Assembly (NCBI RefSeq): GCF_031085175.1
Contig: NZ_JAVHUY010000013.1
Span: forward strand, 1 to 64,000
Source: Phytohabitans maris
GTDB lineage: Bacteria; Actinomycetota; Actinomycetes; Mycobacteriales; Micromonosporaceae
Direction of reading: 5' to 3'
DNA length: 64,000 nt
Positions within the stretch are counted from its first letter, which is position 1. Each line of letters opens with the position of its first letter. The notes below the pieces were generated by a model. The model saw only the letters and a program-made list of their open reading frames with translations. It did not search any database and had not been told where the DNA came from. A program made the position numbers and the translations under genes. Below, piece after piece: positions 41,123-46,081 of this stretch.

Positions 41123-43092
41123 TCAGGTCGCCTCGGTTCCTCGTGCTTCTGAGTCAACTTGCCCCCGCCAGTAGGCGAGGTTGTGGCGGGTGGTCAGCGT
41201 GTTCGGGTGGTCCGGGCCGAGCACCCGCAGCCGGTCGGGGAGCAGCTCCTCGAACGCCTGGGCGGCACCGGTTGCGTCCCCGGCCTGCCCCCGCCAGGAG
41301 GCGAGGTTGTGGCGGGTGGTCAGCGTGTTCGGGTGGTCCGGGCCGAGCCCCCGCAGGACGTCGGGGAGCAGCTCCTCGAACGCCTGGGCGGCACCGGTTG
41401 CGTCCCCGGCCTGCCCCCGCCAGGAGGCGAGGTTGTGGCGGGTGGTCAGCGTGTTCGGGTGGTCCGGGCCGAGCCCCCGCAGGACGTCGGGGAGCAGCTC
41501 CTCGAACGCCTGGGCGGCACCGGTTGCGTCCCCGGCCTGCCCCCGCCAGGAGGCGAGGTTGTGGCGGGTGGTCAGCGTGTTCGGGTGGTCCGGGCCGAGC
41601 CCCCGCAGGACGTCGGCGAGCAGCTCCTCGAACGCCCGGGCGGCACCGGCCGCGTCCCCAGCCTGCCCCCGCCAGGAGGCGAGGTTGTGGCGGGTGGTCA
41701 ACGTGTCGGGGTGGTCTGGGCCGAGGGTCTGTAGGGCGGTGGCGAGCAGGCGTTGGAAGTGGTCGCGGGCGGCGGCGACCAGCCCGATCTCACCCAGACT
41801 CCGGCCCGCGAGAAAGAGCAGCGGGTGGGCGTCGGGTTCACCGTCGCGGGTGTGCCAGAGGTGCTCGCCCGCGGCGGCGGTCAAGGTGGTGGTGTTGGTG
41901 CGTAGCAGTTGCCCGAGCCGGGCGGCGTGGCTGTCGCGTTCGATGTAGGGCCACAGCTGTATCAGTGCGTCGGCGGCGGTGTGAGCCAGGCCGCGCTGCT
42001 GCCCGTGGGGGGTGGCTTCGGCGACGACGCGTTGGACCAGTGCATGTACTCGTACGAGAGTCAGGTCAGTGTCGGGATCGCTGACGGTGTCTGCCAGACC
42101 GAGCCGGTAGAGGGCTCGGGTGGCGTCGGCGGCGTCGTCGCTGTCGACGTCCCGGTCGAGGGTCTGCCGGTAGTGGGTGAGGGCGGCGGTGGTGGTGAAC
42201 AGGTCGGCGGGGATGCCGTTGGCGTCCAGCAGCGCGGCCAGCCGCAGCACCTGGGTGGCCAGCTGGTCAGTGTCGGCGTCGGCTTGGGTGATGGACAGTG
42301 CCCAGGTTTCGGTGACGGCTTGTTGTTGTTCGTCGGGCAGGGTGTCGGGGTGGAGCCGGTCCAGGCGGCGTTGGTGGAGTCGGGTGCGGTAGGTGGCGCA
42401 GGTCAGGTTCCGGTCCAGGATGTAGGTGGCGGCCTGCGCCAAAGCGATTGGTAGGTGGCCGAGGTCGGCGGCCAGTTCGGCGGCTTGGTCGAGACGCTGT
42501 GCGGTGTCGCCGAGTTTCCCGGCCAGGTAGGCGTGCGCTTCCTCGGGGGGTGAACACACCCACGTCGATCGGCTGGCGACCAGCTAGCAGGGCGGTGTCG
42601 CGGCGGCGGGTGGTGGCGGTGTCCGGCGGCCACAGCCCGGCCAGATCCTTCGGGTGGGTGATGTCGTCCAGTACGATCAGCCACCGCCGGTCGGTGGTGG
42701 CCAGCCAGGCCAGGAACCGTTCGGCGGCGTGCTGCGGGTCCATGCCGTCAACACCGGTCAGATCGACGGCGGCCCGCAAGTAGGTGTCAAGGACGGTGGC
42801 GCGGCTGCTGGCCGAGACCCACACCAACAGGTCGAGCTGCCCGGTCGCCCACAACTGGGCGGCCAGGTTCGCGGCCAACTGGGTTTTGCCAACCCCACCC
42901 ATACCGGCCAACACCTGACACACCACCGTCGTGCCCCCACCACCGACCGCCGCGGCCAACAGTCCATCGGCGGGACGTGGCTGCCGGCCGGGGTAGCGCC
43001 CCAACCCGGTGCGGCAATGCCACCCCTGTCCGGCCACTGCCACCGACGTTGACGTTGACGGGTGCGTGGAAATTGCCGACTGGCCCTGTCAC
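41123..43092 (-). pseudogene. NB-ARC/TPR STAND protein with frameshifts
   Basis: The protein must be read in three pieces. It starts at GTG 43092 (TGPVGNFHAPVNVNVGGSG, GRTGVALPHRVGALPRPA), shifts frame near 43000 to PADGLLAAAVGGGGTTVVCQ and the P-loop GMGGVGKTQLAANLAAQLW with Walker B RWLIVLDDI, then shifts again at a run of six G (42545-42550) to EEAHAYLAGKLGDTAQRLDQ, a winged-helix part and at least five C-terminal TPRs of 42 residues ending at 41123. With five G the frame would read VFTPEEAHAYL and continue. This is the NLR-like plan: signalling motif, NTPase, sensor repeats. The upstream small gene carries the same motif at its C-terminus. If the shifts are real the sensor is dead; the G6 run could be a sequencing error, the first shift less easily. 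Confidence 0.8.
41160..41740 (-). repeat. 126-bp tandem repeats encoding TPRs
   Basis: The segment GCGAGGTTGTGGCGGGTGGT recurs at 41175, 41301, 41427, 41553 and 41679, exactly 126 bp apart. Central copies are almost identical in DNA, and the outer ones diverge slightly. Each unit codes for one 42-residue kinesin-light-chain-type TPR (LGPDHPNTLTTRHNLASWRG). The near identity points to recent expansion or gene conversion. Confidence 0.95.
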
Positions 43093-43139
43093 TTGGCCGA
43101 GTTCCGGCCAGGGGTTGGGGGTTCCGGCAGCCGTGACCG

Positions 43140-43544
43140 CTAGTCGGCTGCCGGCGGCGTCGGGGGGAGCGGCGCCTGGGTGCGTTGGTCGAACGAGACC
43201 GGCGCATAAAACTCGCCGACCGCGCCGTGCACCGTGCCGCTGATGTTGAACGTCGCCGCCGCCTTCGGGTTAGCCAACGCCAGCAACTCGCGGGCAACGG
43301 TCAGGATCTGCTCATCCTCGGCCGCGCCGCTGGTACGCAGGTCGTCACCAATCCGGGTCTGCCACACCCCCGGCTCGGTCTCCTCCGCCTCCAACGCCTC
43401 CCGCGCCGTGTCCCGCCCAGCGAACCGGCGCTTGATCAACTGTTTGAGCAGCCCATACGTGTCAGTGATCGCCTGCGTCGCGGCACCGGACACTCCGGTG
43501 GTAGCGCCGGCCGCCAACGCCGCCACGATCAACTCCACACCCAT
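43140..43544 (-). CDS. small helical putative effector with C-terminal amyloid-like motif
   Basis: 134 residues from the ATG at 43544, with AAGGG upstream. Residues 1-40 begin with a hydrophobic helix (GVELIVAALAAGATTGVSGA) and a basic end (LLKQLIKRRFAGRD). Residues 45-95 are helical. Residues 98-119 read ATFNISGTVHGAVGEFYAPV and on to SFDQ, and a Pro-rich tail follows. The part GAVGEFYAPVSF (43191-43226) matches GPVGNFHAPVNV (43051-43086) at the N-terminus of the adjacent STAND protein. This arrangement, a membrane-active-looking helical domain with a C-terminal motif beside an NLR with the same N-terminal motif, is that of bacterial amyloid-signalling (BASS) pairs with Bell/HeLo-like effectors. 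The effector role is inference. Confidence 0.65.
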   Translation of the reverse strand: MGVELIVAALAAGATTGVSGAATQAITDTYGLLKQLIKRRFAGRDTAREALEAEETEPGVWQTRIGDDLRTSGAAEDEQILTVARELLALANPKAAATFNISGTVHGAVGEFYAPVSFDQRTQAPLPPTPPAAD

Positions 43545-43691: not shown

Positions 43692-45463
43692 TCAGCCGGC
43701 TGGGCCATGGGGCGAGGGTCGGATTGATGACAAAGGGTGCCGAAGGCTTCCCGTCGCGCGGGCTTTGCCCAATCGGGCCGGGTACCGGGTGGCAAACACG
43801 CTCCTCGGACACGAACCTTCGTACATGATCGCCGGTGGCTTCGCCTCGGCGATCAATTTGTTTTGGCCGGGCTGGTAGGTCAGTCGGAGCCCTACCTCGC
43901 TGTAGATCTTGGCTTTGTCGGCTGGGTCGGCGTGGCGGAGGACGTCGAGGATCGAGCCGAGTGCCGTGACGAGGGTACGGATCTCGTCTGGGGTTATGCG
44001 TGCGGGTTTGCCGCCGGTGGCGGTGCGGAGTTGGGCTTGGGCGGCGACGCGGGTGGTGTTGACGTCGGCGGTCCAGCGGGTGATGAGGGCAGGGTCCGTG
44101 CCGGCTTCGAGGGCCGCGCGGTAGCGGGCCAGGCGCTGGTCGCAGTCAGCGATGATCCGCTTGGCCTCGGTGACACGCGCGAGTGCATCCTCGTCGTGAT
44201 CTTCGTTCTGGGCGTCGGCGAGGGCCTGGATGGTGTCAGGGAGTGCGGCTGGGGAGAAGGCGCGCAGCAGCCAGCGGTCGAGCGTCGGCACGATGAGTTC
44301 CTCGCGCACGTACACGCTGCGCGGGTGTTCGGTGTGGTTGGCCAGCCCGTACTCAGTGGGATAGACGCAGCGGTAGTGGGGTTTGTCGTTGTTCCAGCTG
44401 CCTTGCATGCGGCGGTGGCAGAGGCCGCAGAACAGCAGCCCGCGCAGTTGGTAGGGGTGGCGAGTGCGCTTGATGGTCGTGACCGCAGCCTGCCGGTGGC
44501 GCCTGCCAGCGAGTTGCGCCTGCACCTTGCGGAAGTCGTCGTCGCTGACCAAGGGCTCGTGCACGACCTGCGCGGACCAGATCCAGGACTCGGGATTGTT
44601 CCAGCGCATTTTGGTCTCGTGGCCGAGGGCCACGTCGTCGACGTCGATGAGGACCTCGTCCTTGCGCTGCCTGTTCCAGACCTGCCGCCCCGTGTAGCGG
44701 GGGTTGGTCAGGATGACTCGGACGGCGGTCTTGGACCAAGCGATGGTGGTGCGGTGCGGGTTGCGGGCGCGGTCCTGGGCGGATGGGCTGAGGATGCCGT
44801 CGGCGGTGAGGGCCTCGGCGATGGCGAACAGGCCGCGGCCGGCCAAGTAGTCGCGGTAGATCCGCTTGACCACGAGCGAGGTGACGGGGTCGGGTTCGAG
44901 CTTGTGCAGCCGCCGGCCGTCGAGGGCCTTGGTCGGGTTAGGGTGCGGCCCAGCGTCGGCAAGTCGGTAACCGTATGGTGGCCGGCCGCCGAGGTAGCGC
45001 CCATCGGTGGCGGCTTGGGCGGCCATCGCCGAGCGGACGCGGATCTTGATGCGGTTGCGTTCGCCCTTGCTCATGCCGCCGTACAACGCCATGACTAGGT
45101 CATGGGCGTCGCTGCCGGGGTCGATGGCGCCACCGACCTCCGGCGCCCAAAGTGCGACGCCGTAGTGCTCGAAAGCGGGAACGTGAGCCCGAACTGGTTG
45201 CCGTAGAAAGCGCGCTGCGGTTCGCCGATCACGACGGCCTCAAAGCCCCGGTTCGGGTCACGCAGCGCGGCTAGGAGGCGGGCAGCCTGGGGTCGGCGTT
45301 TCCAGGGCAGCGAGCGGGACAGGCCGATGTCGAAGAACTCGGCGACAATCTGGCCGCCGGCCGGTTCGATCAAGGCCCGGGATCGGGATAGCTGCCAGGC
45401 CCGTGACGCTTCCGGGTCTTGCTGGTCCTCGGTCGATACACGACCGTAGAAGGCGAACTTCAT
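43692..45463 (-). pseudogene. large serine recombinase, one frameshift
   Basis: Starts at ATG 45463 with the catalytic domain MKFAFYGRVSTEDQQDPEAS (Ser10) and FEAVVIGEPQRAFYGNQFGLTFPL, then loses frame at about 45185. The other frame continues FEHYGVALWAPEVGGAIDPGSDAHDLVMALYGGMSKGERNRI, a recombinase domain, the zinc ribbon (LRGLLFCGLCHRRMQ) and a coiled coil, ending at 43692. One missing base between CCG and TTC GAG explains the shift. Intact members integrate or excise elements and are about 590 residues. The ATG overlaps the stop of a paralogous partner gene. The frameshift makes it probably inactive. Confidence 0.82.
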
Positions 45464-46081
45464 ATTTCGTCCTCGATGTCTGGCCGATGCGGAGGCGGGA
45501 GTTCGGCCGCGGGAGGATACGGCGACTCGCCGTCTTCGCACAGCCCTTGCCGGACCCGCCCGTCCGGCTCGTGGAAACGGCTGCTCGTGCAGGATGTGCA
45601 CGTCGTCGATCCAGGACGACAGCTCGGCGGTCCTCGCCGCGGCCACGGCGGTCTCGGCTGCGGGCCCGAGTAGCGGTGGAGGAACCGTCCGCCAGAACAG
45701 CTCCATCATGATCCTGTCGTGTCCGGCGTTGTTTGAGGCGACGGGTCCGTCGATCTCCGGCAACCACAGCTGGACGCCGTGCCGGGTGCACAGCGACAGG
45801 ACCAGGTCGTACTGATAGGGACTGAACGCGCTTCGCGTGTCGCTGACGACGACGGCGTCGAAGCCGCGCCCCGGGTCCGTGAATGCGGCCAACAGTCGCG
45901 CCGCCTGCCGGCGGTGCCGCCACGCCCGATGACGATCGGGGTAGATGTCGAAGAACTCGCGGACGATGTGTCCGCCGAGGGACGCGACGCGCGCGGTGGC
46001 GTCCGCGACTTGCCGGGCCTGGATGGTGCGAGCCTGCTGGCGGTCCGTGGTGACTGCTTGTCCGTAGAAGGCGAAGTTCAT
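45460..46081 (-). pseudogene. catalytic-Ser-lacking serine recombinase paralogue, probably frameshifted
   Basis: From ATG 46081 (ATGA overlap with the preceding small gene) the protein MNFAFYGQAVTTDRQQARTI parallels the recombinase MKFAFYGRVSTEDQQ, but the catalytic Ser10 is Val and Arg8 is Gln. REFFDIYPDRHRAWRHRRQAARLLAAFTDPGRGFDAVVVSD and HGVQLWLPEIDGPVASNNAGHDRIMMELFW also align with it. The original frame has no stop before the recombinase start, but a neighbouring frame reads EPDGRVRQGLCEDGESPYPP and ends with a TGA overlapping the recombinase ATG (45460-45463), so a shift near 45570 is likely. It is probably a dead-catalytic partner subunit. Confidence 0.6.

Follow-up and report, generated by a model that had tools for sequence, protein, structure and literature searches.

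The stretch of DNA analysed, referred to below as the window, comprises 64,000 nucleotides of Phytohabitans maris (contig NZ_JAVHUY010000013.1, positions 1 to 64,000) and carries, on its minus strand, a small effector gene followed by sequence for an NB-ARC/TPR sensor. All window features described below lie on that strand. The effector open reading frame (ORF; 43140..43544) is intact, encodes a predicted helical, BELL-like protein of 134 amino acids, and ends with a TAG codon at 43142-43140. Motif profiles located a peptide of the type termed here class A, VHGAVGEFYAPVSF (motif 1, 43191..43232), on the effector side, and a second, VTGPVGNFHAPVNV (motif 2, 43051..43092), on the sensor side, 98 bases away and in the -1 frame relative to the effector; NB-ARC and TPR sequence comes after motif 2. 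The source genome, a 9.87-Mb draft of 95 contigs, contained one match to the effector and 26 to NB-ARC, and of these 26 only the window copy had the motif on its own strand nearby (within about 1.5 kb).

The initial annotation had described a motif common to the C-terminus of the small protein and the adjacent NB-ARC/TPR protein, and both peptides were found on the minus strand where it had placed them. When the motif profile was run over six frames of the 64 kb, the two best positions were the two sites of the pair (44.5 and 12.7 bits; next best 7.5), although the effector site had itself contributed to building the profile that ranks it top. Taken alone, the window pair gave a BLOSUM62 local score of 43, equalled by 14 of 5000 shuffles, which is of moderate significance; the pair stands above chance because the motif is conserved across loci. 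To collect such loci, 30 effector domains were aligned without the motif (A1) and genomes were then searched. The effector family was found in 95 of 354 genomes of the host family and in nine of 394 sampled across the class, the window's own genome counted. The 125 loci used (identified by L numbers) are matches from searches for the effector, with seven of the weaker matches in the host family left out and only the best first-look candidates scored per genome. Motif profiles were built from effector tails only, and were scored on the three forward frames around and after the effector stop, with the effector frame masked. Exactly one motif type could be assigned to each side in 72 loci, and effector and neighbour carried the same type in 68 of these (best of 100,000 label shuffles, 54), and reverse-strand controls passed the threshold in 1/125 cases for class A and 0/125 for class B. 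The four discordant loci were L019 and three with dual-motif effectors (L029, L090 and L112); no scorable motif was present next door to 30 class B and four class A effectors. The conservation in other adjacent pairs that the initial annotation had proposed looking for was thus found across many genomes, and the shared motif pair in the window is real.

Two main motif types occur in the family. Class A, the window type, has the effector consensus NHGAVGEFHAPVTF, and class B the consensus AKGVQVGDHNTQHN. The published Frankia BASS3 peptide scored as class B (45.2 bits against the effector profile of class B and -17.9 against that of class A). Assignment of the window motif itself to BASS3 (RHIM-like) was rejected, as the VQ(V/I)G-type core is missing and the BASS3 peptide scores negatively with the class A profile. 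Class A was compared with the BASS3 peptide only, and may well be one of the other nine BASS classes. The fungal sigma motif was also considered and rejected: the Pfam NACHT_sigma profile, which detects the sigma peptide itself at 1.7e-11, was matched by none of the six effectors or three sensor starts scanned, even with E allowed up to 10. One sigma peptide (PMC8086366 Table 2) does resemble class A in its last 14 residues: when these were scored with the class A profiles, 7 and 1 of 1000 shuffles did as well.

The two sides of the pair change motif together. In a tree of 67 sensor bodies, from which the motif was excluded, the well-supported branches require at least nine changes of motif type. 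Among eight independent pairs differing in sensor motif, the effector shifted the same way in seven, the opposite way in none and was unchanged in one (sign test, p = 0.016). Locus L081 provides an example close to the window. Its effector domain is 68% identical to that of the window over the matched part and belongs to the same well-supported effector group, and its sensor body groups with L002 and L003, from genus mates of the window, whose own broken sensor lies outside that tree. Despite this class A kin, both motifs of L081 are of BASS3 type. L081 is the class B member of three such pairs in its genome, the other two (L008 and L056) being class A. Such concerted switching is as a homotypic signalling code predicts. 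With the motif pairing, it supports the amyloid-signalling pair proposed in the initial annotation: the conserved pairing with an NB-ARC/TPR sensor and the joint switching with RHIM-like BASS3 bear out the signalling part, while the amyloid part is a prediction from sequence.

Twelve effectors, assigned by eye before the heptamer described below was discovered, carry two motifs (L029, L086, L090, L095, L096, L100, L103, L104, L112, L120, L124 and L126). Many show a BASS3-like stretch followed by a longer class A variant; they fall mostly in one branch of the effector tree, and partner sensors that could be typed belong to class A. These effectors may represent intermediate stages in motif switching. 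A further motif pair, GDRSVAAHTIHGGVRTGD and GDRSVAVQHVHGNVHTGD, the latter in the next frame, accompanies a same-family effector in Geodermatophilus africanus (L041, 5001-5381).

The sequence between the two motifs has a distinctive organization. In the window, motif 1, a slip site, a hairpin and motif 2 all lie within 182 bp. A slippery heptamer, C_CCC_CCG, occurs in the effector frame at 43161..43167, and is separated by 6 nt (43155..43160), a spacer length typical of -1 signals, from a hairpin at 43124..43154. The hairpin consists of a 9-bp stem (43154-43146 with 43132-43124) and a 13-nt loop (43145-43133) containing the effector stop codon. A possible second stem of a pseudoknot (43105..43139) would pair CGGTCA of the loop (43139-43134) with TGGCCG (43110-43105), as indicated by locus-wise complementarity in 37 loci. 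This stem was absent from the minimum-energy fold of the window strand, as computed by a program that excludes pseudoknots.

Across the family, 39 of the 45 effectors with a class A motif or dual motifs had C_CCC_CCR in frame (NNC CCC CCR), as against none of the 68 class B effectors (Fisher, 2.5e-24). With raw profile labels used instead, it appeared in 4/72 class B effectors, all four of them from the dual-motif group. The stop codon ends 18 or 21 nt past the heptamer in most class A effectors. Codon usage was rejected as the cause of the heptamer: among the remaining 880 Pro codons CCC accounts for 26%, and it never opens a neighbouring Pro-Pro pair (26 pairs). All 35 class A sensors examined lay in the -1 frame, which was open through the effector stop; L004 and L066 were left out of this count for their overlong effector ORFs. 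Class B sensors occupied frames 0, +1 and -1 in 9, 16 and 15 of 40 loci, one of which (L019) has a class A effector. These frames are not due to assembly error, because several loci sit in single-contig genomes, that of Phytohabitans flavus among them. The -1 frame remained open for 200 codons in 36/39 loci, the exceptions being the window, L012 (on a contig of a metagenome-assembled genome, MAG) and L124.

No ATG, GTG, TTG or CTG occurred from slip site to sensor motif in 22 of the 39 loci, a fixed 30-codon stretch being used for loci without a typed class A sensor motif. In four of these 22, the window included, the 14-residue motif itself opens with GTG, leaving 18 without an ordinary start. 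The initial annotation had placed the motif at the sensor N-terminus. It does lie near the sensor start; a clean N-terminus was not found, and in relatives the -1 frame of the sensor extends upstream past the effector stop. Both products appear to be retained: the zero frame keeps its Pro-rich tail and its stop, and the -1-frame peptide begins with PP and has a partly conserved AG...PG stretch. In the predicted fusion, the two motifs are 30-52 residues apart (median 33, 32 loci). Stop codon usage also differed, with TGA in 49/65 class B effectors and TAG in 34/44 class A and related ones. A Shine-Dalgarno-like stretch lies directly upstream in 16/39 loci.

In L066 (1385-1434, minus) the element has a C run one shorter and the effector frame continues, which may be natural variation or a sequencing slip. 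Two same-family effectors, L149 (1581-2396, minus) and L150 (1455-2351, minus), have C_CCC_CCA or C_CCC_CCT ahead of the stop and a weaker hairpin (6 to 6.9 of 9 pairs); in place of an NLR, their -1 frame encodes one predicted membrane helix, Pro-rich sequence and a domain that matches nothing in Pfam.

The hairpin was conserved together with the heptamer. After the heptamer come 6 nt, then a 9-bp stem that opens with CCGG in nearly all loci, and a 13-nt loop carrying the stop codon. When the stop codon was used to position the stem, seven or more of the nine pairs could form in 39/42 class A loci, 7/65 class B loci and 158/840 shuffles; the loop was exactly 13 nt in 36/42 and 1/65, respectively. 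Covariation was assessed in 37 aligned sequences (A3, A4), picked because they have the heptamer, a 13-nt loop and no more than two of the nine stem pairs missing, so that the invariant Cs are there by construction; of 42 sequences, L004, L006, L109, L149 and L150 were left out. Both sides vary in 7/9 stem pairs, and 93.1% of cells pair; shifting the partner by 1 to 3 columns lowers this to 25-49%. Of five covariation measures, four exceeded all 500 shuffles. The loop sequence after the stop, often GGGTC, was complementary, locus by locus, to a stretch 6-22 nt beyond the stem. This second stem scored 505 against 422 +/- 13 with shuffled partners (0/20,000 as high; 5/10,000 with positions free), though relatedness of the loci may inflate the statistic. 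The junction structure is probably an H-type pseudoknot, as judged from complementarity.

An RNA model of the element (R1) scored the window hairpin at 57.7 bits. It gave 41 matches of at least 37.4 bits in 36 of the 354 family genomes, each at a locus of this effector family; 37 of these are its training rows, and L006, L014, L066 and L109 are not. At E up to 0.1, matches occurred in 155/354 genomes, and those of about 36 bits and below resemble background: four such matches were inspected and no effector tail of this kind surrounded any of them. Outside the family, nothing exceeded 36.2 bits in 387 other genomes of the class. The element was present in 7 of 13 named loci, namely those of P. 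flavus, Virgisporangium aurantiacum, Paractinoplanes bogorensis, a Dactylosporangium MAG, Micromonospora rubida, Micromonospora sp. RP3T and Actinoplanes liguriensis.

Among three relatives, the effector gave dN (nonsynonymous divergence) of 0.10-0.11 against dS (synonymous divergence) of 0.44-0.59. The model of the window effector (mean predicted local distance difference test score, pLDDT, of 76) contains helices at residues 2-19, 24-40, 45-52, 58-72, 78-91 and 93-100, and residues 101-128 score below 50. Scans with Pfam, NCBIfam and PADLOC profiles, which include no BELL profile, gave nothing above cut-off. In its size, modelled helices and hydrophobic start the effector is compatible with BELL, as are the BASS3 motifs of its relatives; it is probably BELL-like and membrane-active. 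NB-ARC was found in all four -1-frame sensors scanned; TPRs were found in three, the fourth being a partial sequence.

Motif pairing, concerted switching, slip site, spacer, covarying hairpin and open -1 frame are features of the sequence itself. We consider it likely that the locus type represents a module of two parts, in which a BELL-like effector and an NB-ARC/TPR sensor signal through a probably amyloid-forming motif that they have in common, and in which the class A sensor is expressed by programmed -1 ribosomal frameshifting. The FRAMESHIFTING reading is made because the layout matches that of known -1 signals, with heptamer, short spacer and downstream structure. In cells, most ribosomes would terminate at the stop codon in the hairpin loop and release free effector in excess. 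Some would be held by the hairpin or pseudoknot, slip on C_CCC_CCR and continue in the -1 frame. In the resulting fusion, BELL and motif 1 would be joined through about 33 linker residues to motif 2, NB-ARC and TPR, in that order. Activation through NB-ARC/TPR would cluster these scarce fusions, and their tandem motif copies would nucleate a cross-beta fold. This fold would template the free effectors as its substrate and lead to membrane damage, presumably killing the cell in defence. The first effector helix (residues 2-19), which is moderately hydrophobic, may act on the membrane, as the available sections of one source propose for BELL (PMC7889193).

Several observations weigh against this interpretation. 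A possible start codon, with CTG counted, lies between slip site and motif in 17/39 loci. Codon-position bias is weak in the short -1 linker, with 44, 37 and 56 substitutions at positions 1, 2 and 3. In L016 and L049, effector and sensor both carry class A motifs and the heptamer is absent, so the motif does not need frameshifting. The fifth covariation measure, further pair types, was unexceptional (51/500 shuffles as high). The effector is only moderately hydrophobic (top 19-residue hydropathy mean, 1.53), and comparison of its fold with the PDB gave no match of weight. Finally, the window's own -1 frame stops 126 codons past the slip site.

This last point reflects the state of the window sensor. 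The initial annotation had described an adjacent sensor gene; NB-ARC and TPR sequence is indeed present, but the gene is broken, which had been overlooked, as had the -1 frameshift element. Similarity to the P. flavus sensor (L031) spans three frames, with shifts near 42985 and 42545. The first piece, motif 2 and linker, lies at 42982..43092 (tblastn with the P. flavus sensor); the second, NB-ARC, at 42549..42989 (PF00931, 3.4e-8, and comparison with P. flavus); and the third, a DUF7779-like region and TPRs, at 41123..42541. Within the third, a 126-bp unit is repeated in 4.5 copies with 96% matches (41160-41725), a TPR repeat recently duplicated or homogenised. The window sensor is either a pseudogene in the source strain or the product of draft assembly errors. 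Chances are about even that the module is decaying in this strain, with the effector left from a broken pair in a mobile region. The two frame changes and the early end of the -1 frame favour decay, as does recombinase sequence upstream of the pair (43692-46081; two minus-strand ORFs, PF07508 with PF13408, and PF00239), which suggests a mobile setting. However, in a draft of 95 contigs sequencing error is possible, and the effector, slip site, hairpin and both motifs are undamaged. Decay would in any case bear on one strain and not on the system.

Another alternative concerns the motifs. Their homotypic binding might involve no amyloid, with simple pairing of beta-strands as one example, and the rest of the model would be unchanged. 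In its favour, the motif is poor in N and Q relative to BASS3, and effector residues 101-128 are without structure in the model. Nevertheless, we regard it as rather unlikely, in that the same effector family bears BASS3-type motifs at the same position and amyloid-like aggregates formed in vitro from one such BASS3 peptide, according to the relevant part of PMC8086366.

Translational coupling would dispense with the fusion altogether: effector and sensor would be two separate proteins, the hairpin regulating re-initiation and the sensor starting at a weak or non-standard codon near motif 2. The position of the stop codon inside the hairpin loop would suit this, as would the 17 loci with a possible start, the four more with a motif-opening GTG, and the GTG that overlaps the effector stop in L016. 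Coupling has no account, however, of the 18 loci without any such codon. Nor would it require C_CCC_CCR to be in frame and always 6 nt from the stem, or the sensor to keep to the -1 frame, as it does in 35/35 loci. It appears improbable. Transcriptional slippage on the run of six Cs, yielding mRNAs of altered length that join both frames, is highly improbable, since six bases is short for such slippage and a stem-loop aiding it is expected in RNA already made, upstream of the slip site, whereas the hairpin here lies downstream at a fixed 6 nt, as in -1 ribosomal frameshifting. In favour of slippage, a context-dependent case with assistance from a nascent RNA stem-loop is known at a T5C5 site in an insertion sequence (IS) element, as given in the portion of PMC5009743 used.

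Returning to programmed frameshifting, we lean slightly towards a stronger form of it. In this form the sensor would be made solely by frameshifted extension of its effector, and the proportion of frameshifting would fix a small number of two-motif nuclei within a large pool of one-motif substrates. The DNA from motif 1 through slip site and hairpin to motif 2 would be a cassette that recombination swaps as a unit. Class B relatives lack the heptamer, mostly lack the hairpin and have varied frames. We hypothesize that both motifs are switched most simply by one recombination event replacing this short stretch. A cassette would explain the joint change of both motifs and the lasting adjacency of the genes, and a contiguous, swappable unit is a concrete, testable answer. 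Prion-like signalling requires few controlled nuclei and a pool of convertible substrate, and a frameshift giving both from one mRNA would be a simple means to fix their ratio. If so, gene finders relying on ordinary starts likely misplace the N-termini of these sensors.

Amyloid signalling pairs of the BASS/BELL-NLR kind were reportedly described by Dyrka et al. in 2020. In the sections of the literature available, they consist of adjacent genes for a small helical effector with a C-terminal motif and an NLR with a matching motif at its start (PMC7889193, PMC8086366, PMC9815663, PMC12261475). The present pair shares this layout, the type of partner and an actinobacterial host: the motif is shared by adjacent genes, and the sensor is an NLR (NB-ARC with TPR). 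It differs from the pairs in those sections in that the class A sensor lies in the -1 frame behind a slippery heptamer and hairpin, and in that its motif is not BASS3. BASS3/RHIM/PP motifs occur in the same effector family at the same position, and replace class A on both sides together; unlike BASS3, the window motif lacks the VQVG core. No precedent for frameshifting in BASS/BELL-NLR systems was found in the portions of the literature searched (including PMC8086366, PMC7889193, PMC12261475, PMC9815663, PMC8195603, PMC3711429 and PMC5009743).

Signals for -1 frameshifting in bacteria, such as those of dnaX and IS3-family transposases, combine a slippery heptamer with a downstream hairpin or pseudoknot, and IS elements likewise fuse an upstream product with a downstream one, as set out in part of PMC5009743. 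The junction described here shows a zero-frame heptamer of X_XXY_YYZ form, followed within a few nt by structured RNA, and, the window excepted, a conserved open -1 frame. Unlike dnaX and the IS3 family, its heptamer is C_CCC_CCR and its products are an immune effector and its sensor. In the fungal systems NWD2/HET-S and HELLP/PNT1, as outlined in the section of PMC7889193 used, an amyloid fold nucleated by the NLR brings about conversion of an execution protein that is separate from it. Here, by contrast, the NLR would be fused to one copy of the execution protein. HET-s has two repeats, and the tandem motifs of the predicted fusion recall them.

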